Source of the DNA: Ruminococcus sp.
Lineage (GTDB): Bacteria; Bacillota; Clostridia; Oscillospirales; Ruminococcaceae
Assembly (NCBI RefSeq): GCF_017464355.1
Contig: NZ_JAFUAG010000021.1
Span: forward strand, 1 to 56,598
Direction: 5' to 3'
Length of the DNA stretch: 56,598 nt
This document shows, piece by piece, positions 965 through 55,568 of the stretch. The notes beneath the pieces were generated by a model, which did no database searches, had not been told where the DNA came from, and was given only the letters and a program-made list of their open reading frames with translations. Both the position numbers and the translations under genes were made by a program. How positions within the stretch are numbered: position 1 is the stretch's first letter; every line of letters starts with the position of its first letter.

Positions 965-2125
965 ATGTTCAAGAATTTTTATCGCAATGCGTTTGTTGAG
1001 ATAGGTAAGTCCGAAGCGGAAATTTCTGCCAGACTTGATGAGATAGTCAGCGAATTTTTCTTCGGCGAGGACAGCTTCTACCACGAAACAGCCGACGGTA
1101 TGGGCTATTTTGAGGATACGGGCAACCATGACGCCCGCACCGAGGGTATGTCCTACGGCATGATGATGGCTGTTCAACTGGATAAAAAGGATATCTTTGA
1201 CAGGATATGGAAATGGTCGAAGACCTATATGTTCATGGATAAAGGTTGGAACGAGGGCTATTTTGCCTGGTCATGCAAGACCGACGGCACCCGCAATTCC
1301 GACGGCCCTGCCCCTGACGGCGAAGAGTTCTATGCTATGGCACTGTTCTTTGCTGCCCACCGCTGGGGTGACGGCGAGGGTATCTTCAACTACACCCATG
1401 AAGCACAGGAGCTTCTCCACAGCTGTATCCGCAAGGGCGAGAACGGCCGTGAGGGCGCACCTATGTGGAACAGGGAGAACAAGCTGATACTTTTCGGCCC
1501 GGGCTGTGATTTCACAGATGCTTCCTACCACCTGCCCCACTTCTACGAGCTTTTTGCACAGTGGGCCAATGAAGAGGACAGACCATTTTTTGCGGAGGCA
1601 GCTGCTGCTTCCCGTGAATATATAGCTAAGTCCTGCCACCCCGTAACAGGTCTGAACCCTGAGTACGGCGAGTTCGACGGCTCGCCCATGCAGCGGCCTA
1701 TGCCCTGGTCAAAGGACAGGCACGACTGGTTCTACAGCGATGCCTACCGCACCGCCGCCAACATCGGCCTTGACAGAGAGTGGTTCGGCAAGGACAGCGG
1801 ACATTTTGCCGCCGTGCCTAAAATACAGCATTTCCTCGGTGTGGTCAACAAGGACGAGCCTTTCATGACCTATGAGGTGGACGGCACCCGCATTGAACAG
1901 CCCGCCCTGCACCCCGTTGGTCTGCTGGCTACCACCGCCCAGGCCTCCCTCGCCATCGAGGCGCCCCTCTCGCTGAATTCCGCTGACCCCGAAGTCAAGC
2001 TGGCAGCAGAATGGGTAGAACGTTTCTGGAACGAACCCCTGCGCAAGGGCGACAGACGTTACTACGATAACTGCCTCTATATGTTCGCTTTCCTCGCCCT
2101 CAGCGGAAATTACAGGATCTGGTAA
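965..2125 (+). CDS. GH8 reducing-end xylose-releasing exo-oligoxylanase
   Basis: A 386-residue glycoside hydrolase family 8 protein matching the length and motifs of the Rex enzymes, which release xylose from the reducing end of xylo-oligosaccharides. There is no signal peptide, so it should act in the cytoplasm on imported oligomers. The family general acid sits in RTEGMSYGM (Glu60), with further acidic residues at PAPDGEEF (Asp118) and YSDAYR (Asp259). GGGAGGG precedes the ATG. The 3' end runs straight into the large palindromic repeat, whose outer stem can terminate it. Family assignment is firm; exo-specificity is inferred from resemblance. Confidence 0.9.
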   Translation: MFKNFYRNAFVEIGKSEAEISARLDEIVSEFFFGEDSFYHETADGMGYFEDTGNHDARTEGMSYGMMMAVQLDKKDIFDRIWKWSKTYMFMDKGWNEGYFAWSCKTDGTRNSDGPAPDGEEFYAMALFFAAHRWGDGEGIFNYTHEAQELLHSCIRKGENGREGAPMWNRENKLILFGPGCDFTDASYHLPHFYELFAQWANEEDRPFFAEAAAASREYIAKSCHPVTGLNPEYGEFDGSPMQRPMPWSKDRHDWFYSDAYRTAANIGLDREWFGKDSGHFAAVPKIQHFLGVVNKDEPFMTYEVDGTRIEQPALHPVGLLATTAQASLAIEAPLSLNSADPEVKLAAEWVERFWNEPLRKGDRRYYDNCLYMFAFLALSGNYRIW

Positions 2126-2130
2126 AAAAT

Positions 2131-2435
2131 CAGCCCCGAAGTGGGCGGATGAATACAAAAAGAGCTTGTATGCTTACTGGGGGAAACCCTTTTGAAAAAG
2201 GGTTATCCCCCAGACCCCCTTCCTAAAACTTCTATTTTGGGTGGGCGAAAGGTCACTGTTCTATGATAGAACAGCGAATGTCCGATACTTGCTATACTCT
2301 GTAAGTGCAGTGACTTTTCGCCCACCCAATATAAAAAGTCTTTGGAAAGGGGTTCGGGGGATAACCTTTCTTCAGAAAGGTTTCCCCCGATAAATATACA
2401 AGCTTTCTTTGTATTCGCTGCCCGCTTCGGGGCTG
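2131..2435. repeat. Large palindromic intergenic element, copy 1
   Basis: About 305 bp built as nested inverted repeats. The outer arms begin CAGCCCCGAAG and end CTTCGGGGCTG. Next come GGGGGAAACCC and GGTTTCCCCC blocks, then inner arms GGGTGGGCGAAAGG (from 2239) and TTTCGCCCACCC, around a ~49 bp core with two small hairpins. It fills the gap between the convergent GH8 and cysK genes, and an A-run precedes the outer stem. Copy 2 lies at 10135-10462. The core here is the reverse complement of the core in copy 2 although the flanks match directly. No coding potential is seen. Confidence 0.85.
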
Positions 2436-2449
2436 ATTATTTGCGCAAA

Positions 2450-2481
2450 GACCCCCGTCGGCACGAGGGTCGGCGGGGGTC
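2450..2481 (-). terminator. Terminator candidate of cysK
   Basis: GACCCCCG and CGGGGGTC arms enclose about 16 GC-rich bases just downstream of the cysK stop. On the minus strand the hairpin is followed by only TTT, so it may be weak and act together with the adjacent palindromic element. Confidence 0.45.
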
Positions 2482-2510
2482 GGAAAGAAAGATCGTTATG
2501 TCGGTTTGTA

Positions 2511-3440
2511 TCAGTCAAAAAGTGCGGTAGAGAGGTATCTCTCGCCTGTGTCGGGCAGGAGGGCTACTATGACCTTGCCCTTATTTTCGGGGCGCTTGGA
2601 TATCTCGGCTGCTGCGTGGAGTGCAGCGCCCGAGGAGATACCTACGAGTATGCCCTCGGTCTTGGCGAAGCGGTTGCCTGCTGCGAAAGCGTCAGCGTTC
2701 TCAACGGGGAAGACCTCGTCATAGATGTTGGTATCCAGCACATCAGGCACGAAGCCTGCGCCTATGCCCTGTATCTTGTGGGCGCCGGACTTGCCCTGAG
2801 AAAGCACGGGGGAAGAAGCGGGCTCAACAGCTACTATCTTAACATCGGGGTTTTTGGACTTGAGGTACTGGCCCACACCTGTGATAGTGCCGCCTGTGCC
2901 TATGCCTGCCACGAAGATATCCACCTTGCCGTCGGTATCGTCCCAGATCTCGGGGCCTGTGGTAGCCAGGTGAACAGCGGGGTTAGCGGGGTTGACGAAC
3001 TGTCCCAGGATAACAGAATTTTCTATCTCGTTATTCAGCTCCTCAGCCTTTTTGATAGCGCCTGTCATGCCCTTAGCGCCCTCGGTGAGGACTATCTCAG
3101 CGCCGTAAGCTTTCAGCAGATTTCTTCTTTCAACGCTCATGGTCTCGGGCATGGTAAGTATTACCTTGTAGCCCTTTGAAACACCCACTGCTGCCAGGCC
3201 GATACCTGTGTTGCCCGATGTAGGCTCGATGATAGTGGAACCCTCTTTCAGCACGCCGTTCTTCTCTGCGTCCTCGATGAGGTTCAGGGCAACTCTGTCC
3301 TTAACGCTGCCTGCGGGGTTGAAGTATTCCAGCTTAGCCAGAATGCTGCTGCCTGCGCCTACAGCCTGGGAAAATCTTGCAGCCTCAACTATAGGTGTGT
3401 TGCCGATGAGTTCGCCGATGTTCTTATAGATCTTTGCCAT
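2511..3440 (-). CDS. cysK: Cysteine synthase A (O-acetylserine sulfhydrylase)
   Basis: PLP enzyme making L-cysteine from O-acetylserine and sulfide in the cytoplasm; 309 residues, normal for the family. Lys47 in NPAGSVKDR is the Schiff-base lysine. TSGNTG (residues 74-79) binds substrate, and the GTGGTITG loop holds the PLP phosphate. AAGGAAGT precedes the ATG. A near-consensus promoter overlapping a palindrome lies upstream, which suggests a cysteine-responsive repressor. It stands alone between the GH8/repeat region and the chemotaxis operon. Confidence 0.95.
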   Translation of the reverse strand: MAKIYKNIGELIGNTPIVEAARFSQAVGAGSSILAKLEYFNPAGSVKDRVALNLIEDAEKNGVLKEGSTIIEPTSGNTGIGLAAVGVSKGYKVILTMPETMSVERRNLLKAYGAEIVLTEGAKGMTGAIKKAEELNNEIENSVILGQFVNPANPAVHLATTGPEIWDDTDGKVDIFVAGIGTGGTITGVGQYLKSKNPDVKIVAVEPASSPVLSQGKSGAHKIQGIGAGFVPDVLDTNIYDEVFPVENADAFAAGNRFAKTEGILVGISSGAALHAAAEISKRPENKGKVIVALLPDTGERYLSTALFD

Positions 3441-3515
3441 GATAGATTACTTCCTTTCGATAATATATCTGATTTATTCGGTGCGGTGTGTACCGCTTTT
3501 CTTTACTGTGATTAG

Positions 3516-3548
3516 AGTATATCACATTAATCCTAGTATGTCAATAGG
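3516..3548 (-). promoter_or_regulatory. cysK promoter with palindromic operator
   Basis: On the minus strand TTGACA (3539-3544), a 17-base spacer and TATACT (3516-3521). The -35 lies inside the imperfect palindrome CCTATTGACATACTAGG (3532-3548). Rrf2-family regulators (CymR, IscR types) often bind such sites at cysteine and Fe-S genes of Bacillota; which regulator acts here is inferred only. Confidence 0.65.
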
Positions 3549-3660
3549 TTAAATAGTGATTTTACCCTTTGCACAAACCGAGGGCTGATATTTTGTACCA
3601 TTTCCAGCAATATTAATCAACAAGTCCTATGGGAGATAGGGGAATTAACTTTCCCGCAGC

Positions 3661-3697
3661 AAAAAGCCCGCGGGCGGTCAGCTGACTGCCTGCGGGT
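3661..3697 (-). terminator. Terminator of the cheR-cheB-cheW operon
   Basis: On the minus strand the arms CCCGC-A-GGC-A-GTCAG and CTGAC-C-GCC-C-GCGGG form a stem with two mismatches, followed by CTTTTT. It lies about 8 bases past the cheW stop. Confidence 0.8.
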
Positions 3698-3704
3698 ATT
3701 GCGT

Positions 3705-4184
3705 TTATTCTGCTGTTTTATCAGAGGCTTCCTGCACTGCCGAGAATTTCTCTTCATCATCAGGCCTTATGACAAGGTCGGGCTTGATGATGTAGCAGGG
3801 CTGACCCTCGTGTATAAAGGTGCCGCAGATAAATCTGGCGTTCACCTGTTCGTTCACATCGGGGGGCGGCTGTATATCCTCGGGCTGTACCTCCACGAAG
3901 CCTGCTATGCTGTCGCACCTTAGTCCCAGGGAACGCTCGCTGTCGCATATCATTATGCATTCCCGCCCCTGAGGTTCGCGGTGTTCCCCTCCGAAGCGCC
4001 TGCGCAGGTCGATGACCGTCACCGTCTTCCCCTCATTGATAATAGTGCCGTCAACGTAATCGGGAAAATCAGGCAGTTTTTCGGCAGGCTGTGCGGGTAT
4101 TATCAGCAGCACGTCAGAAAAGCTCATACAGAAAGTCCTGCCGTCCACAGGAAATAAAAGGTATTTGTTGTCGCTGTCCTGCAA
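3705..4184 (-). CDS. cheW: CheW-like chemotaxis coupling protein
   Basis: CheW domain protein of about 159 residues, linking receptors to a CheA kinase. The FPVDGRTFCMSF opening and the VIDLRRRFGG stretch fit the SH3-like fold. Start choice: a GTG at 4193 directly abuts the GGGAGG ribosome binding site with no spacing, so the TTG at 4184, eight bases beyond it, is preferred. It follows cheB by about 21-30 bases and ends the operon before a clear terminator. No CheA or receptor gene lies nearby. The start is uncertain; the family is fairly sure. Confidence 0.8.
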   Translation of the reverse strand: MQDSDNKYLLFPVDGRTFCMSFSDVLLIIPAQPAEKLPDFPDYVDGTIINEGKTVTVIDLRRRFGGEHREPQGRECIMICDSERSLGLRCDSIAGFVEVQPEDIQPPPDVNEQVNARFICGTFIHEGQPCYIIKPDLVIRPDDEEKFSAVQEASDKTAE

Positions 4185-4214
4185 GATCGTCACCTCCCTA
4201 TTCAGGATATAAGG

Positions 4215-5195
4215 CTATTTCAGCCTGAGTTTTGTTATTATGTGCCCCGCTATGTTTTCAAGCGAGAGGCTTATGTTGGCAGCACCGTTTTCCGCCGCCG
4301 CCCTAGGCATACCGTATACCACCGCCGATTCAGCCGACTCAGCAATGTTGTAAGCCCCCATTTTCCGCATATCCAGCATACCCTTTGCGCCGTCGCTGCC
4401 CATGCCTGTCAGTATGACACCGATAGCGTCCTTTTTGGCAGCGTAGGCCGCCGAGTCGAAAAGCACGTCCACCGAGGGGCAGTGGCCGTTGACCTTTACC
4501 CCCGCTTCGCTGTTTATGAAGTAGCCCTTTTTGTCACGGAAAAGCCTGAGGTGCCTGCCTCCTGCCGCTATGACCACCATACCTCTTTTAAGATAGGTGC
4601 CGCTTTCCGCCTCGATAACGTTCTGGGGCAGGGAAGCGTTCAGCTGGGTGGCATAAAGCTTGGTGTAGCCCTCGGGCATATGCAGCACGCATACCACAGG
4701 GGGGCAGTCCGCAGGCAGACCTTTCAGCACCACGGGCAAAGCGTTGGTGCTTCCCGTAGAGCCGCCTATGACGATGACCTTTGTATCCCGGGTCATGTCC
4801 GTGTTTATCCTGGGTCTTAGAATGTTTGTGCAGCCCATTATGCTTGAAGCCAGCCTTGAAAGCAGCCTTTCATCAAGCTCATCGCCGTGGGGGCGGCTGA
4901 TAACGTCCAGGGCACCTGCCTGTATCAGCGAGGATTTTGGCGTAGGCCTTGATGTAATGGCGATGACGGGGGTAAGGTACCTGGGTCCCAGATTTTTAAT
5001 GTAAGCCGCCGCATCGAAGCTGCCCTGCTTATCCACATCAAGCACCAGTGCCGAGGGCTTGTCCCTGGCTATCATGGCCTTTGCTGAATCCAGCTTGCCC
5101 GTTTTGTACACTGCAACAGGGGGCAGCTGTTCTTTCAGCCCGTTCACGAGCAGCTCAGTCAGCTTATGGTTATCTGATATTATAAATATATTCAT
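4215..5195 (-). CDS. cheB: CheB protein-glutamate methylesterase with degenerate receiver
   Basis: 326 residues: an N-terminal receiver-like domain (1-120) and a C-terminal methylesterase (about 138-326) that would demethylate or deamidate chemoreceptors. The catalytic triad is present: Ser146 in GGSTGST, His172 in LHMPEG, Asp268 in TGMGSDG. The receiver keeps Asp53, but the usual second N-terminal acidic residue is missing (SDNHK) and the conserved Lys before Pro is Arg (SRP, Arg101). Phosphorylation control may therefore be altered. The ATG overlaps the cheR stop (ATGA), which indicates translational coupling. Confidence 0.9.
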   Translation of the reverse strand: MNIFIISDNHKLTELLVNGLKEQLPPVAVYKTGKLDSAKAMIARDKPSALVLDVDKQGSFDAAAYIKNLGPRYLTPVIAITSRPTPKSSLIQAGALDVISRPHGDELDERLLSRLASSIMGCTNILRPRINTDMTRDTKVIVIGGSTGSTNALPVVLKGLPADCPPVVCVLHMPEGYTKLYATQLNASLPQNVIEAESGTYLKRGMVVIAAGGRHLRLFRDKKGYFINSEAGVKVNGHCPSVDVLFDSAAYAAKKDAIGVILTGMGSDGAKGMLDMRKMGAYNIAESAESAVVYGMPRAAAENGAANISLSLENIAGHIITKLRLK

Positions 5196-6040
5196 CTGCT
5201 GCTCACCTCCGTCAGTTTGCGGTACACCGCAGGCTGCTGCTTTACATAGGGCATATCATCAGGGGCGGACTCGGCATGGCCTATGTAGAGATATCCGCCC
5301 TCCTCGGTAGCCTCGTAAAAACGTTTACACAGCTGCGACTTCGTCTTGTCATCAAAGTATATCATGACATTGCGGCAAAGTATCAGGTCAAACTTTTTCT
5401 TGAAATTTATCTCATCCATGAGATTGTGGTACTTGAACACCACGTTGCTGCGTATCCTGTCCTTTACCTGATACAGCCCGTGGGAGGTCTGGTCGAAGTA
5501 TTTCCTGCGCCATTCCTCGGGCAGGTTTTCAAGGGCATTCTCGGTATACACGCCCCTTGCCGCCGAGCGCAGTGCGTTGAAGGATATATCCGTGGCCAGT
5601 ATTTTCAGATCCCAGTTCTGCTGCCTGAAACCGAAATATTCATCTAAGCACATGGCCAGATTGTAGGGCTCGTTCCCGAAAGAACAACCCGCCGACCATA
5701 TGCGCAGGTCGTGGTCTGTTATGGCCTTTTCTGCCTGGGGCAGGAAGACCTCGCGGAAATGGTCGAAATGCTCCGACTCACGCATGAAGTAGGTGTGGTT
5801 GGTGGTCAGGCGGTTGATGAGGTTCGCTACCTCCCGTCCCGAATTGTCATCAAACACCGCTTCAAGATAATCGGAAAAATCCTTGAAGCCGCAGTCAGCC
5901 ACATAGTTGGCCAGGCGGGACTGCACTATGAACTGCTTGCCCTCCAGGTCGATGCCGTAGCCCGACTTGACGAAGTTCACAAGGCGCAGAAAATCCAGTG
6001 CGTTTATCTCGCACATACCGTCCATAGCTTTACCTGTCAC
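5192..6040 (-). CDS. cheR: CheR chemoreceptor glutamate methyltransferase
   Basis: SAM-dependent methyltransferase of 282 residues that methylates glutamates of chemoreceptors. It has an N-terminal helical domain (about 12-85) and a Rossmann domain with the SAM loop WSAGCSFGNEPYNLAM, where FGN replaces the usual TGE, plus LCRNVMIYFD. GTG is the likely start because AAAGGGGGT lies nine bases before it; in-frame ATGs follow five and eight codons later. It is the first gene of cheR-cheB-cheW, behind its own promoter. Confidence 0.92.
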   Translation of the reverse strand: MTGKAMDGMCEINALDFLRLVNFVKSGYGIDLEGKQFIVQSRLANYVADCGFKDFSDYLEAVFDDNSGREVANLINRLTTNHTYFMRESEHFDHFREVFLPQAEKAITDHDLRIWSAGCSFGNEPYNLAMCLDEYFGFRQQNWDLKILATDISFNALRSAARGVYTENALENLPEEWRRKYFDQTSHGLYQVKDRIRSNVVFKYHNLMDEINFKKKFDLILCRNVMIYFDDKTKSQLCKRFYEATEEGGYLYIGHAESAPDDMPYVKQQPAVYRKLTEVSSR

Positions 6041-6083
6041 AGTGCTGTACCCCCTTTCCGCAAGGCATACTCTCGTATAGTAG

Positions 6084-6112
6084 ATTATACCACATTTTGT
6101 TCATTTTTTCAA
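6084..6112 (-). promoter_or_regulatory. Promoter of the cheRBW operon
   Basis: On the minus strand TTGAAA (6107-6112), 17 bases, TATAAT (6084-6089). It is a housekeeping type rather than a sigma-D flagellar promoter. Confidence 0.7.
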
Positions 6113-6278
6113 GTGGTTTTGTAAAACTGATACAAAAATTTACACACAGGACCCAAAAACACGGCAGGCGAAGAAGCTCCTGTTAAAAGTTTTTGTTATA
6201 AATGCACAAGAGACTTCCTGCGGGGACGGCTCATGGTTGTGCAGGTAAATAAAGTGCAAGCGAAATTATATAATTCCA

Positions 6279-6307
6279 TTGACAAATTATTTAAACGGTG
6301 GTATACT
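6279..6307 (+). promoter_or_regulatory. Promoter of the ribbon-helix-helix gene
   Basis: Near-perfect TTGACA (6279-6284), 17 bases, TATACT (6302-6307), divergent from the che promoter. Between the two promoters no further element is seen. Confidence 0.8.
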
Positions 6308-6333
6308 GTTATCAGTGAAAAGGGGGTGAGTTG

Positions 6334-6990
6334 ATGAACAAGAGCGTGTACAGCCTGGTGCTGGCAGATGAAGTAGTTGAAGCTATTGACCGCATGGCCT
6401 ATTCCATGAACACCAGCCGTTCAAACCTGATAAACCAGATACTGGCAGAAAGGGTGAGCCTTATGACCCCCGAGATGCGTATGCGGCAGATATTCAGTGA
6501 GATAGAGCAGCTTATGGACCCGCGGTTTTTGTTCATCGACCAGCCCTCTGACAGCATGATAGCCATAAAAAGCCCCGTCAGGTACAAGTACAAGCCCACG
6601 CTGCGCTACAGCCTTGAGCTGAGCCGTGACCTGCAGGGGCGGGTGGGGCGGCTGAAGGTATCCTTCCGCACCAAGAGCGAACAGCTGATACTGGCGGCGG
6701 AGAATTTCTTTGAGCTTTGGCTGACGCTGGAGGACAGGTATCTTCACAAGGTATTCCCCGAGGGGGTGCCTGCCACCGCCGAAAACGGCAGGTATACCAG
6801 GGATTTCTATTCGCCGCTGGCAGAAAGGCTTTCCGATAACGAGATAGCAAATTCCGTGGCGGGGTATATAAGGCTCATGGACAGCTGCATACAGACCTAC
6901 TTTGACGGCCTGACCGACGGCACCGACCGTTCTGCCGAGATTGGCGCTGAATATGCCGCTTATGTAAAAACTGTCACAGCGGTGATATAG
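6334..6990 (+). CDS. Ribbon-helix-helix (CopG/Arc-like) protein with unknown C-terminal domain
   Basis: The first ~45 residues look like a ribbon-helix-helix DNA-binding fold: a beta strand (SVYSLVLADEVV) and two helices ending RSNLINQILAERVSL. The remaining ~170 residues are not recognised; they alternate strands and helices and carry few cysteines. ATG at 6334 is preferred over the TTG at 6331 because AGGGGGT then lies at proper distance. It is probably co-transcribed with the small membrane protein 9 bases downstream. A DNA-binding or toxin-antitoxin-like role is inferred from the N-terminus only. Confidence 0.7.
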   Translation: MNKSVYSLVLADEVVEAIDRMAYSMNTSRSNLINQILAERVSLMTPEMRMRQIFSEIEQLMDPRFLFIDQPSDSMIAIKSPVRYKYKPTLRYSLELSRDLQGRVGRLKVSFRTKSEQLILAAENFFELWLTLEDRYLHKVFPEGVPATAENGRYTRDFYSPLAERLSDNEIANSVAGYIRLMDSCIQTYFDGLTDGTDRSAEIGAEYAAYVKTVTAVI

Positions 6991-6999
6991 GAGGGCAGC

Positions 7000-7371
7000 A
7001 TGAGTAAGAAGATAAAGATAACGGCAGGCATTATATCGGCGCTTATCATATTGGCGGTCATTGCATTCTTTGCTCTGACTACTAAGGCGGAACGCAGATT
7101 CGGCATGACTGTTCCGAAGTCACCTACAACAGATGTCATCGGTACAGTGTATGATGTGCGCAGTGACTTTATAATAAATATGCCCGAAGACTATATCCTT
7201 GACCTCAGCAAAAGCGCTCCCACCTACGATGAAGTTGTGGAAGAACTCGGCGAACCCAGTGGAAAGTACGGCTTCGGGATATGCAGGGCATACTGGCGCA
7301 TAGGTGAAAGGAAATATGCCGAATATGTTTTCATGGGCGATGCGCCGTTTCTGGAGATAAGGGAATACTGA
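7000..7371 (+). CDS. Small membrane-anchored protein, unknown function
   Basis: 123 residues: a Lys-rich start, one hydrophobic segment (about 7-27) and a ~95-residue extracytoplasmic part containing YDEVVEELGEPSG, reminiscent of small lipoprotein-like SmpA/BamE folds in other bacteria, though that likeness is loose. TAGGAGGG precedes the ATG and the gap from the previous gene is 9 bases, so the two form an operon. No family is recognised. The MITE-like element begins about 10 bases after its stop. Confidence 0.7.
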   Translation: MSKKIKITAGIISALIILAVIAFFALTTKAERRFGMTVPKSPTTDVIGTVYDVRSDFIINMPEDYILDLSKSAPTYDEVVEELGEPSGKYGFGICRAYWRIGERKYAEYVFMGDAPFLEIREY

Positions 7372-7381
7372 TAATAATACC

Positions 7382-7484
7382 TATAGCAATCCAACTATTT
7401 AAATTCACAAAATCCAGTCGCAAAAGCTCGGATTTATGGATTTTGTGACTGGATTTTGTCTGAATTTTAAGGCGGATTGCTATA
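7382..7484. mobile_element. 103 bp MITE-like palindromic element, copy 1
   Basis: Terminal inverted repeats TATAGCAATCC and GGATTGCTATA bound a 103 bp palindromic unit with internal arms ACAAAATCCAGTC and GACTGGATTTTGT. Copy 2 at 17652-17754 differs at three positions by eye. It sits immediately before the clpB ribosome binding site and its right end merges into TATATAAA. It encodes no protein, so it would need a transposase supplied elsewhere. Confidence 0.85.
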
Positions 7485-7502
7485 TATAAAGGAGGACAAA
7501 CA

Positions 7503-10127
7503 ATGAATATGCAGAAGTTTACGGAGAAGTCCGTGCAGGCTGTACAGGACGCTCAGAATATCGCGGCAAGGCAGTCTAATCAGGCCATAGGACAGGAACA
7601 TCTGATGAGTGCGCTGTGCCTTGATGACAACGGGCTCATCCCCCAGCTGCTCACACAGATGAGTACCGATGTGAATGCTTTCAGATCGGCACTGGACAGG
7701 GCAGTGGATAAGATACCGAAGGTAACGGTAGGCGGCAGAGCTCAGGGGCAGATATATATTTCCAATGAGCTTGACAGAGCCCTTGCTGAGGCTGAGGCTG
7801 CTGCCAAGCAGATGCAGGACGAGTATGTTTCGGTGGAGCATATCTTCATCGGTATAATGGACTGCGCCAACAACGAGATAGCCGAGATACTGAGGACCTT
7901 CGGCATAAACAAGACAGGCTTTCTGGCGGCGCTGAAGCAGGTCAGGGGCAGTGCAAAGGTAACGAGCCAGAACCCCGAGGAGACCTATGACGTGCTGAAA
8001 AAGTATGGCCAGGAGCTGGTGGGTCTGGCAAGGCAGAACAAGCTCGACCCCGTTATAGGCCGTGATTCCGAGATAAGGAACGTTATCCGCATACTCTCCC
8101 GAAAGACCAAGAACAACCCTGTGCTGATAGGCGAACCCGGCGTGGGCAAGACCGCTGTGGCTGAGGGGCTGGCGCAGCGTATCGTCAGCGGTGATGTGCC
8201 CGACAGCTTAAAGGACAGGCAGATATTCTCGCTGGATATGGGTTCGCTGATAGCAGGAGCCAAGTTCAGGGGCGAGTTTGAAGAGCGCTTCAAGGCCGTC
8301 GTGGAGGAGATAAAGAAATCAGAGGGCAGGATAATACTGTTCATAGATGAGCTGCATACCATCGTAGGCGCAGGCAAATCCGACGGCGCCATGGACGCAG
8401 GCAACCTGCTCAAACCCATGCTGGCACGCGGCGAGCTGCACTGCATAGGCGCCACCACCCTTAACGAGTACAGACAGTTCATCGAGAAAGACAAGGCGCT
8501 GGAAAGACGCTTCCAGCCCGTTATGGTAGATGAGCCCAGCGTTGAGGACACTATCTCTATCCTCAGAGGACTTAAGGAGAGATACGAGGTCTTCCACGGT
8601 GTAAAGATACAGGACCAGGCGCTGATAACTGCGGCTGTGCTTTCTGACAGATATATCACTGACAGGTTCCTGCCTGACAAGGCCATTGACCTGGTGGACG
8701 AGGCCTGCGCACTTATACGCACCGAAATGGACTCAATGCCCACCGAGCTTGATGACCTGCGCAGAAAGATACTCCAGCATGAGATCGAAGAAACTGTCCT
8801 CAAAAAGGAAACTGACAAGCTGGCTGAGGAACACCTGCTGGAGGTACAGAAGGAACTGGCAGATATGCGCGCACAGTATGACGAGATGCGGGCAAAGTGG
8901 GAAAACGAGAAGAACGCTATCGGAAAGGTGCAGAAGATACGCGAGGAGATCGACGCTGTAAACGGTCAGATCAAACAGGCGGAGAGAGATTACGATCTGG
9001 AAAAGCTGGGCGAGCTGAAATACGGCAGGCTGGAAGACCTGAAAAAGGAGCTTGCCGAGGAGGAGAAGAAAGCCGACCAGACCTCCAAGAGCAACACCCT
9101 GCTGAGAGATAAGGTGACAGATGACGAGATAGCACGCATAATCTGCCGCTGGACAGGCATACCTGTGGCCAAGCTCATGGAGGGCGAGCGTGACAAGCTG
9201 CTCAGACTGGAGAGCATTCTCCATGAAAGAGTCATCGGCCAGAATGAGGCTGTTACAAAGGTCAGCGAGGCCATACTCCGTTCAAGGGCAGGCATAGCCA
9301 ATCCCAACCAGCCTATCGGTTCTTTCCTGTTCTTAGGACCTACGGGCGTGGGCAAGACAGAGCTTGCAAAAACACTGGCGCAGGCGCTGTTCGATGATGA
9401 GAACAACATGGTCAGGATAGATATGTCGGAATACATGGAGAAATTCAGCGTATCAAGGCTGATCGGAGCGCCTCCCGGATATGTGGGCTATGAGGAGGGC
9501 GGCCAGCTCACCGAGGCTGTGCGCAGAAAGCCTTACTCGGTAGTTCTGCTGGACGAGGTGGAAAAAGCCCACCCCGATGTGTTCAACATTCTCCTGCAGG
9601 TGCTGGACGACGGCCGTGTTACCGATTCTCAGGGCAGAACTATCGACTTCAAGAACACCGTCATCATACTTACCTCCAACCTGGGCTCGCCCTTTATACT
9701 GGAGGGCATAGATGAGCAGACAGGCGATATCTCCGAGGAAGCCAAGGAGAATGTGAACGAACTGCTGAGAAGCCATTTCAGGCCTGAGTTCCTCAACCGC
9801 CTTGATGAGATAGTTATGTACAAGCCCCTGCTCAAGAGCGAGATATACAGCATATGCGGTCTTATGCTCAAGAGCCTTGAAAAGCGCCTGGCTGACAAGC
9901 GCCTTAAGCTGGAGATAAGCGAGGCCGCCAAGGCCGCTATCGTTGACCAGGGCTATAACATGGCCTTCGGCGCAAGACCCCTCAGACGTTTCATTCAGAG
10001 CCATGTCGAAACTCTGCTGGCTAAGGCTATCATCAGAGATGACCCCGCCGCCGACAGCACCATGCGCGTTGATTTCGACGGCAATGACTTCTCCGCAGAA
10101 ACTATCGCACCCAAGGAAGAAGCCTGA
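7503..10127 (+). CDS. clpB: ClpB disaggregase (Hsp100 AAA+ chaperone)
   Basis: 874-residue ATP-driven disaggregase that works with DnaK to rescue aggregated proteins. Domain order: Clp N-domain (about 1-145), AAA-1 with Walker A GEPGVGKT (Lys216) and Walker [10 protein letters not shown], a coiled-coil M-domain (about 400-530), AAA-2 with GPTGVGKT (Lys618) and [11 protein letters not shown], and a C-terminal small domain. GGAGGACAAACA precedes the ATG. No CIRCE or CtsR box is visible upstream; the MITE-like element occupies the place where a heat-shock promoter would be expected. Confidence 0.97.
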
Positions 10128-10134
10128 TAAAAAA

Positions 10135-10462
10135 CAGCCCCCAGCGGGTGGGCGAATACAAAAAAGAGCTTGTATGCTTACTGGGGGAAACCCTTTTGAA
10201 AAAGGGTTATCCCCCTATGTCAGCTATGCTGACATATACCCCACTTCCTAAAACTTCTATTTTGGGTGGGCGAAAGGCCACTGCACTTGCGTAGTATTGC
10301 AAGTGTCGGACATTAGCTGTTCTACTATAGAACAGTGACCTTTCGCCCACCCAATATAAAAAGTCTTTGGAAAGGGGTTCGGGGGATAACCTTTCTTCAG
10401 AAAGGTTTCCCCCGATAAATATACAAGCTCTTTTCATATTCGCCCACCCGTTTGAGGGGCTG
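10135..10462. repeat. Large palindromic intergenic element, copy 2
   Basis: Second copy of the element at 2131-2435, again between convergent genes (clpB and GH5). The outer stem CAGCCCC...GGGGCTG is preceded by an A-run and followed by TTTTTTT, making a bidirectional terminator. The left arm carries a small extra hairpin (TATGTCAGC...GCTGACATA). The flanking arms match copy 1 in direct orientation, but the ~49 bp core between the inner arms is inverted relative to copy 1. The element fills the whole 10128-10467 gap. Confidence 0.85.
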
Positions 10463-10467
10463 TTTTT

Positions 10468-11691
10468 TTACGATGCGTTTGCCGAAGGGTCGCTTTCGGC
10501 GTATTTTTTGAAAACGTCCATCATCTGGGGGAAGTACCAGTCGTACTCAGCACGGTTGAGCAGACCGAAGTTCTCGCCGCCGCCGATACGGGCATAGTTA
10601 TCCCACCATATGCAGGGGATATCGTAGTTTGAAGCTGCGGTGAGGTAATCCTCCAGGCACTTTACTCGCTGTTCGATGTTATCCTTGTTGACCGAGCCGA
10701 ACTCACCGACGATAACGGGAATGCCCCTGCTGATGAACAGCTCGTTCAGGGTGTTGAAAAAATCGGGTATAGATGTATCGTTCAGGTCGTAAACATCGGT
10801 GCCCTTGGTATCCAGTGCAAAGGAGTAGGGCAGGTAAGCGTGGACCGAGATTATCAGCTTGTCGCTGTCCTCGGGCAGTTCAATGGCCGAGAGGTTGTTC
10901 TGTGCCGAAGAAGCGGCATAGCCTGTTATCATCAGGCACCTGTCAGCATTGTTGCCGCCGCTGGCTCTTACAGTTTCAACAAAGGCCTTTTCGTATTCGT
11001 TGATTATCTCCCTGGCCTCGGTGGTGCCTGTCCATTCAGCGGGCTCGCCCCTGAGTCTGGGTTCGTTGAGTCCCTCGAAGATGAGATGCTCGTCATAACC
11101 CTTGAAGCGGTCGGCTATCTGCGCCCATACCGCCTTTATCTCCTCTATGTCCTGCTCCTTTTCGGAAGCCTTGGGCATATACCATTCCTCGTGGTGGGTG
11201 TTGAGTATAACGTACAGTCCGTCATCAATGCCGTAGTTGACTATCTCCTGCACCCTGTCCATCCAGGCGGGGTCTATCTGATAGTCGTCACCTGTTATGT
11301 GGCCGTCCCAGCTTACGGGTATGCGCAGTACGTTGAAGCCTGCGGGCTCCAGCATATCTATCATGTACTGGTTGGTCTCTGCTTTGGTGGGGAGCCATGC
11401 AGTTTCCGCCTCAAGGCCGTTTCCGCTGGCGTCCATGGTGTTGCCCAGATTCCAGCCGTAGCTCATCTTCTTCACAAGGTCAATGGCAGAGGTCTCTGTC
11501 ATCGGGTCGTTGGTGTGGGTCTGTGAAACAGGCACGTCCTCAGCATTGCCGCTGTTATCTGCCGATGAACTGTTTTCAGCCTTGCTATCCTTTTCGTCCT
11601 TCTTAGAACTGCTGTCCCCCGAGCAGGAAGCAAATGTCCCCATAGATACTGCCGCTGCCACCAGCAGCGCTGCCAGTTTGCTCATTTTCAT
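10468..11691 (-). CDS. GH5 endoglucanase lipoprotein
   Basis: 407 residues. The signal peptide ends in a lipobox (TFASC) and a Ser/Lys/Asp-rich linker runs to about residue 60; a GH5 catalytic domain, probably subfamily 4, follows. Catalytic acid/base Glu210 is in GLNEPR and nucleophile Glu330 in VGEFGS. It should hydrolyse beta-1,4-glucan, or related xyloglucan and mannan, at the outer membrane face. AGGAGGA precedes the ATG. It lies 39 bases after the PHP gene, probably in one transcript. Substrate preference cannot be read from sequence alone. Confidence 0.92.
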   Translation of the reverse strand: MKMSKLAALLVAAAVSMGTFASCSGDSSSKKDEKDSKAENSSSADNSGNAEDVPVSQTHTNDPMTETSAIDLVKKMSYGWNLGNTMDASGNGLEAETAWLPTKAETNQYMIDMLEPAGFNVLRIPVSWDGHITGDDYQIDPAWMDRVQEIVNYGIDDGLYVILNTHHEEWYMPKASEKEQDIEEIKAVWAQIADRFKGYDEHLIFEGLNEPRLRGEPAEWTGTTEAREIINEYEKAFVETVRASGGNNADRCLMITGYAASSAQNNLSAIELPEDSDKLIISVHAYLPYSFALDTKGTDVYDLNDTSIPDFFNTLNELFISRGIPVIVGEFGSVNKDNIEQRVKCLEDYLTAASNYDIPCIWWDNYARIGGGENFGLLNRAEYDWYFPQMMDVFKKYAESDPSANAS

Positions 11692-15479: not shown

Positions 15480-15597
15480 GCATATCACAAATATTTAAAA
15501 ATTGTAAACGTTATCTTTTTTTCACTGCCCCGATGAGTGCTGCCGATGATACAGAATGGCTTTTTTCGTACACGGCCAAATTGAGATAAAATACAAT

Positions 15598-17595: not shown

Positions 17596-17651
17596 TAGCG
17601 TGGGTAGAATTTCGGATATTTAGCACAAGTTCAACACAAAAGCAAAATGCC

Positions 17652-17754
17652 TATAGCAATCCAACTTTTTAAATTCACAAAATCCAGTCGCAAAAGCTGG
17701 GATTTATGGGTTTTGTGACTGGATTTTGTCTGAATTTTAAGGCGGATTGCTATA
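17652..17754. mobile_element. 103 bp MITE-like palindromic element, copy 2
   Basis: Same length and ends as the element at 7382-7484, with three mismatches by eye. It lies between the glmS promoter and the copA stop, that is downstream of copA and upstream of glmS. Its palindromic fold could also act as the 3' end of the csoR-copA transcript. Confidence 0.85.
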
Positions 17755-55459: not shown

Positions 55460-55494
55460 GTATTGTTTCCCGCCGAAGGCGGGGGAAACAATAC
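55460..55494. repeat. GC-rich palindrome between genes
   Basis: GTATTGTTTCCCGCC and GGCGGGGGAAACAATAC arms with the loop GAA and a two-base bulge, followed by GAAAAAA. Its centre matches the palindrome at 33807-33845. It lies five bases after a stop and upstream of aroE. It is not followed by Ts on the plus strand, so it is not a normal terminator. Confidence 0.7.
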
Positions 55495-55568
55495 GAAAAA
55501 AGCCATTCTGTATCATCAGCGATACACTTCAAAATTGGGAGAAGATTATTTATAAAGGAGTAAGGAAA

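Follow-up and report, generated by a model that had tools for sequence, protein, structure and literature searches.

Can the core of a palindromic repeat turn over while the arms around it stay in place? The question is raised by a 56,598-nt stretch of the Ruminococcus sp. genome (RefSeq assembly GCF_017464355.1, contig NZ_JAFUAG010000021.1, positions 1 to 56,598; hereafter the window). In this stretch an earlier note had placed two large palindromic intergenic elements, at 2131–2435 and 10135–10462, and had noted arms shared in the same orientation around an inverted core, the pattern expected if the core can invert by recombination at the inner arms or if the element spreads as a hairpin. 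We compared the two elements with each other, with the other copies in the same genome, and with copies in related genomes, including orthologous sites. Inversion of the core is very probable: both orientations are found in four genomes, and orientation differs at orthologous sites of two related species.

The two window elements carry one core in opposite orientations

Elements 1 and 2 are both present in the sequence. Their location held, but their exact ends did not: the palindromes reach further than had been claimed, to about 2124–2439 and 10129–10469, because the outermost stem of each is a terminator-like stem between genes. Read in the same direction, the arms of the two elements match over 204 nt (85%) and over 55 nt (100%), and the core is reverse-complemented, with 55 of 65 bases matching once it is inverted. 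The flipped segment is longer than the approximately 49 bp first suggested, measuring 65 nt in element 1. Identity between the two cores was 0.85 when one was inverted and 0.68 when it was not; 2000 shuffles averaged 0.59 and did not exceed 0.69.

In element 1, the core (2251–2315, plus strand, orientation 1) lies between the inner arms TTGGGTGGGCGAAA (2237–2250) and TTTCGCCCACCCAA (2316–2329), a perfect inverted repeat of 14 whose first two bases are shared with the inner layer outside it. In element 2, the core forms a 61-nt loop (10278–10338, minus strand, orientation 2) between the inner arms TTGGGTGGGCGAAAGG (10262–10277) and CCTTTCGCCCACCCAA (10339–10354). Both elements fold as long nested hairpins (element 1 as DNA, z = −17.6; element 2 as RNA, z = −20.0; matched by 0 of 100 shuffles in each case), and the layers run, from outside to inside, as a site-specific stem, an outer arm, a hairpin of type p or q, spacers, an inner layer, the inner arm, and the core.

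Both core orientations occur in the source genome and in related genomes

A single fixed orientation in all other copies was the outcome that the earlier note had held to speak against inversion; both orientations were found. With hairpin p placed on the left, 14 of the 26 complete cores in the source genome lie one way and 12 the other. Identity clustering oriented 23 of these cores, the sign between clusters being set by eye from a shared motif, and the other three (C10, C33, and C45:11960; a cluster of two and a single core) were oriented by eye. Two core clusters include both orientations (5 versus 5 and 9 versus 4), and no sign conflict arose; turning the C13:20488 core round makes it identical to that of C20:34500 (1.00, versus 0.65 uninverted). 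On a neighbour-joining tree, which is a rough guide because it is built on 52–76 nt per copy, at least seven orientation changes were required, compared with an average of 8.9 and a minimum of 4 for shuffled labels. Orientation tracks descent weakly, if at all.

Both orientations were also present in the genomes G002, RGIG9177, and G003, with other core and arm sequences. In G002, copies L062 and L082 are opposed to L129 and L140 (0.92–0.96 inverted versus 0.61), and all four lie on a single contig of 3,685,408 bp. In RGIG9177, L162 is opposed to L149, L158, L232, and L242 (0.88–0.95 inverted versus 0.71–0.73). In the G003/G005 group, L126 is opposed to L120, L124, L127, L131, and L134 (0.84–0.92 inverted versus 0.64–0.72), with L126 and L134 both coming from G003. 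The inner arms go by lineage: TTGGGTGGGCGAAA in class A and TTTTGGGGCGAAAGGGTGC in class B of the source genome, TCTATTTGGCAGGGGCAG in G002, AAAAATTCCCCCTGATATGGCG in RGIG9177, and TCTTTTTGGCAGGGGGCAG in G003/G005. Among the G002, RGIG9177, and G003/G005 copies, the perfect inner repeats span 9 to 25 bp.

Orientation differs at orthologous sites

From flank matches we aligned 12 orthologous places, namely, nine between G003 and G005, two between G002 and G013, and one between G002 and G005; the nine represent all but one (L287/L263) of the ten G003–G005 pairs with long flank matches. Four G003–G005 sites (alpha to delta) hold full elements of the same class with both flanks aligned, are 92–96% alike over about 4 kb, and differ in orientation in 4 of 4 cases. 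At site beta, the core alone is turned (0.87 inverted, 0.74 not) between arms that are nearly identical on both sides, and at site alpha the inner layer and the core are turned together, the inner layers being plainly swapped. The whole element is turned at sites gamma (core 0.83 versus 0.69) and delta (core 0.98 versus 0.72). The remaining places fall outside this count: epsilon pairs a full element with a single hairpin, eta pairs a full with a truncated element, theta has coreless short forms in both genomes, zeta is degenerate, iota has one flank, and kappa, lambda, and mu have a different core or partly aligned flanks. A further pair of genomes, G015 and G020, gave three matches of at least 350 nt among 17 and 20 stretches and was unusable, since the contigs end in elements.

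The break lies inside the inner arm

A sequence marker locates the exchange point. Within the motif GGCGAAA[A/G]GTCAC, one arm carries A in 7 of the 12 class A/C copies of the source genome. This A lies on the right arm in all four marked copies of orientation 1 and on the left arm in all three marked copies of orientation 2, always beside the same end of the core, and the layers outside the inner arms are fixed (CTATT on the left, TTTATA on the right). Because the marker travels with the core and the outer layers stay, the exchange point lies outside the marker and within TTGGGTGGGCGAAA; the break thus falls inside the 14-bp inner arm. Over 240 arm positions in class A/C, eight had changed identically on both arms and nine on one arm, numbers that reflect few independent events and are no more than suggestive of arm homogenisation. 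The corresponding both-arm count for class B was left unused, being inflated by a one-base shift.

Anatomy of the window elements

The outermost stem of element 1 is site-specific and terminator-like; its left strand (2130–2146, with an A-run at 2124–2129 outside it) pairs with its right strand (2420–2436). The left side then carries a p hairpin (2179–2211; loop TTTTGAAAAA), identical in element 2, followed by the p-side spacer CCTAAAACTT and the inner layer CTATTTT (2212–2238). The right side carries the inner layer and spacer AGTCTTTGG (2330–2355) and a q hairpin (2356–2388; loop TTTCTTCAGAAA). The spacer on the q side of the family is CCAAAGACTT. Element 2 is built alike, with a site-specific, terminator-like left outermost stem and arm (10135–10164; A-run at 10129–10134 outside), a p hairpin (10183–10215), a q hairpin (10381–10413), and a right outermost arm comprising the stem and a T-run (10431–10469). 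It also contains an extra 23-bp palindrome, TATGTCAGCTATGCTGACATATA (10216–10238), which was seen by eye in six other element copies of the source genome and, as a variant, in C44. The outer arm of the element is common to many copies, and, as judged by eye, the outermost stem has an A-run beside it, matched in most copies by a T-run at the opposite end.

Copy number and distribution

The source genome (G000; 3.48 Mb in 49 contigs) gave 60 matches to a 96-nt arm query. We listed 32 copies of about 310–340 nt, 26 of them with a complete core; among the other six, C7, C32, C42, and C36 are cut by contig ends, and C44 and C47 are truncated. Since seven contig ends lie inside elements, the real copy number is perhaps 29–32. 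Short, composed of nested inverted repeats, and present in many copies, the elements share these traits with miniature inverted-repeat transposable elements (MITEs).

Arm matches were found in 21 of the 29 genomes of the genus, including the source genome. An exact arm 26-mer occurred in 107 genome-contig stretches, 101 recorded as Ruminococcus, three as Candidatus Magnetomicrobium, two as uncultured Clostridia, and one as a further bacterium. Three loci in Candidatus Magnetomicrobium (L169, L208, and L220), far from Ruminococcus, carry the exact 26-mer of the p hairpin. A token search of the fetched loci returned 94 instances, each with one p side and one q side (49 p–q and 45 q–p); this count includes L031 twice, and L161, which is p–p by eye, escaped the search. 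L262, L261, L143, and L181 are short forms that have one hairpin and lack a core, and the relative L253 has a full element at the L262 site. Contig breaks inside these palindromes are frequent in G000, G015, and G020, and short-read assemblies therefore probably undercount the elements.

Other repeats were also noted in the window. A second repeat, about 105 bp long, has nested inverted repeats and the ends TATAGCAATCC and GGATTGCTATA and occurs at 7379–7484 and 17649–17754; these two copies are 96% alike, one of them lies directly upstream of clpB, and G004 and G018 contain dozens of matches at 93–99%. A tandem-like duplication of approximately 160 bp at 103–394 consists of 52-nt and 86-nt blocks that are 95–98% alike, and a 29-bp inverted pair (15542–15570 and 55492–55520; 97% complementary) is separated by 40 kb.

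The elements sit in terminator-like stems, mostly between convergent genes

As the earlier note had observed, both window elements lie between convergent genes. Element 1 is flanked on the left by a gene for a glycosyl hydrolase family 8 protein (965–2125, plus strand) and on the right by a gene for a PALP enzyme (2511–3440, minus strand), which we take to be cysteine-synthase-like. Element 2 lies between the gene for ClpB (7503–10127, plus strand; Clp_N, AAA_2, and ClpB_D2-small domains) and one for a glycosyl hydrolase family 5 protein (10468–11691, minus strand). Taking the longest open frame to either side as the neighbouring gene, we scored a raw count of 18 convergent gene pairs among the 24 places in the source genome readable on both sides; eight of the 32 places were unreadable on one side.

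The outer arms pair preferentially with their own partners. Pairing energy within a copy averaged −36.7 kcal/mol (n = 21), compared with −22.1 kcal/mol between copies (n = 420), and the partner from the same copy was among the best three in 18 of 21 copies and the best in 10. The remaining 11 of the 32 places were left out owing to a missing flank or an unmatched hairpin pattern. The outermost arms are site-specific terminator-like stems, mostly between convergent genes.

At two sites on contig C20 of the source genome, relatives have the same gene pair with no element and, by eye, short terminator-like hairpins instead (G004, G026, and G018 at the first site; G004 and G026 at the second, among the relatives examined). 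These element-free sites and their hairpins suggest insertion into terminator loops, and termination activity is predicted for the stems. The window elements gave no readable empty site, because the genes on either side of each element match different places in the nine relatives searched. By eye, clpB is followed by a plain terminator-like hairpin in most of 26 relatives.

Searches for a mobiliser, a promoter, or a known RNA

The four genes immediately beside the window elements include no recombinase gene; the wider genome was not searched for one. A simple sigma-70 scan found no promoter site in 2000–2600 and a single site in 10000–10600, which lies at 10006–10033 inside clpB, so that none fell in a core. 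No transposase tracking the family was found in a search confined to the Y1 family. The source genome has one weak REP-type Y1 transposase-like gene (24.1 bits; 27.8 bits for Pfam; REP_Tyr_transpos 62.2 against a cut-off of 80). Across the 29 genomes, Y1 genes occur in 12 of the 21 with elements and four of the eight without, and this lack of association led us to reject a Y1/RAYT mobiliser. No clear target site duplication was seen by eye, the element ends lying inside palindromic terminator-like stems.

The exact 26-mer had no matches in viral contigs, and PLSDB plasmids gave no match at an E-value of 1e-5. Rfam returned no match in the window at gathering scores. At a low threshold, ten matches fell in element 1, all below their gathering scores, the best being MIR5380 (47.9 bits, E = 7.5e-9, against 150), and these were rejected. 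Among the papers listed, no title or abstract opening describing the family was found in a literature search that left most subscription journals and all bioRxiv preprints outside its range.

Discussion

Both orientations among the copies, together with the orthologous sites that differ, support recombination or strand switching at the arms; the earlier note had proposed recombination at the inner arms. The family is probably a dispersed foldback repeat in terminator loops, with nested segments that are turned round at short inverted repeats, either by strand switching or by recombination. The element would be MITE-like in size and copy number and seated in the loops of intrinsic-terminator-like hairpins, into which it may have spread. 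Segments between paired arms would turn repeatedly when, within a hairpin or cruciform, DNA synthesis switches from one arm to the other or the arms recombine; perfect arms of about 14–22 bp are typical. Strand switching would explain how complementarity between the arms persists across classes of different sequence, and core orientation would carry no dedicated function. In a published account, template switching between inverted-repeat arms homogenises the arms and inverts the spacers, inversions being confined to arms of more than 9 bp (PMC8604942).

Several observations weigh against this reading. Cores of 28–65 nt and whole elements of approximately 300 nt are at or beyond the sizes of the chloroplast and yeast inversions described below. 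The empty sites that correspond to C20 do not match letter for letter, since terminator sequences vary from species to species. The four G005 copies compared within their group share one core orientation. GGCGAAAGG is shared by the arms of classes A and B, and the G002 arms are related to the G003/G005 arms, so the arm sequences are not five independent ones. Orientation was scored on assembled sequences, and no mixed population was seen. The core match at site alpha is weak (0.74 inverted versus 0.65). Finally, for three of the four G005 cores the nearest G003 core is at a non-orthologous site; the ortholog is nearest only for L267, where the match is weak, and for L286 it comes second at 0.98, the L286 core being identical to that of another G003 site.

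This last pattern makes exchange with another copy in inverted register possible, and such exchange would look the same as inversion in place. Dispersed elements, whose palindromic arms could pair in either register, would then undergo homologous recombination or gene conversion that replaces or turns the core. The G002/G013 sites kappa and lambda hold different core classes, and the differing core classes at corresponding G013/G002 places (L122 versus L125, L064 versus L137) suggest core exchange. Flank matches also change at elements: from L287 (G003:C25) to L263 and L264 (G005) they switch contig, as if the elements were rearrangement points. However, exchange among copies of fixed orientation cannot make the first inverted core of a lineage, so that at least one true inversion is needed for each core group showing both states, and at site beta only the core is turned, between arms that are nearly the same. 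Copy-to-copy exchange is thus unlikely as the general explanation, although it may operate as well, or instead at some sites.

It is a rather doubtful suggestion that the layers (core, inner layer, and whole element) are shuffled so fast that orthologous copies already differ between two species 92–96% alike over about 4 kb, perhaps driven by a structure-guided, sequence-indifferent enzyme acting on the hairpin arms, and not by passive polymerase slippage. A site-specific invertase that turns the core, as in phase-variable invertons, would account for the short inverted repeats around the turned segment and for both states being common. This explanation is very improbable: each lineage has inner arms of its own, some of them related, which fits poorly with a recombinase having one fixed recognition site; inversion also occurs at two outer layers; and neither window core showed a promoter-like site in a simple sigma-70 scan nor either element a recombinase gene directly beside it. 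Alternatively, the core could be an independent small hairpin element that entered the arm loop in one direction or the other. Small palindromes do enter the element elsewhere, as at 10216–10238, and similar arms enclose unrelated cores in different species, but within a lineage the core joins the arms at the same junctions whichever way it lies, and both orientations are found among near-identical cores, leaving independent insertion with a very small probability. Contig ends do lie inside elements (the seven in G000, and many matches at contig ends of G015 and G020), yet it is scarcely credible that short-read assemblers flipped cores between near-identical arms, given that four copies on one 3.69-Mb contig of G002 show both orientations and that the core is presumably unique enough for ordinary reads to link both flanks.

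With nested segments inverting between short repeats as the favoured reading, the family can be set beside known systems. REPIN and REP sequences are palindromic intergenic repeats in inverted pairs. The Ruminococcus family resembles the REPIN/RAYT system in its palindromic intergenic repeats and in the single REP-type Y1 transposase-like gene of the source genome, but the element is longer, sits in terminator loops, and is untracked by Y1 genes. Minute or small inversions in chloroplast hairpin loops were reportedly described by Kelchner and Wendel in 1996 and by Kim and Lee in 2005. As in those hairpin-loop inversions, the loop occurs here in both orientations with unchanged flanks, and the breakpoints lie within the arms. 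Juglans chloroplast hairpin inversions have stems of 8–18 bp and loops of 2–31 bp (PMC5492656), and small chloroplast inversions typically span 4–50 bp (PMC12371153); these too involve a loop between short inverted repeats that is turned recurrently, mostly in intergenic DNA. The Ruminococcus family differs in being bacterial, dispersed, and multi-copy, with layers that invert separately in units of 28 nt to about 300 nt. Template switching likewise yields homogeneous arms and a flipping spacer, with inversion seen only where the arms exceed 9 bp, but its yeast cases concern 2–5 bases in single genes (PMC8604942), whereas the cores studied here are longer and belong to a repeat family.

Among bacterial repeats, the Correia repeat enclosed elements of Neisseria are also short, intergenic, and reported to invert; they carry promoters near genes (PMC10969869), whereas no promoter-like site was found in either window core, and in the Ruminococcus family inner segments invert as well. 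The SPRITE, BOX, and RUP elements of Streptococcus pneumoniae are small and intergenic, some are terminator-like, and they can insert into each other; this likeness is one of description, and the available portion of the source does not mention inner-layer inversion for them (PMC10969869).

These repeats are a natural record of a little-studied DNA rearrangement. With approximately 30 scorable natural hairpins in one genome, a bacterium becomes available in which the rate and the genetics of inversion at very short inverted repeats can be measured. The family breaks short-read assemblies of Ruminococcus, and it shows how terminator loops may tolerate insertions. If orientation varies within a culture, the elements would add further micro-scale structural variation in rumen bacteria.

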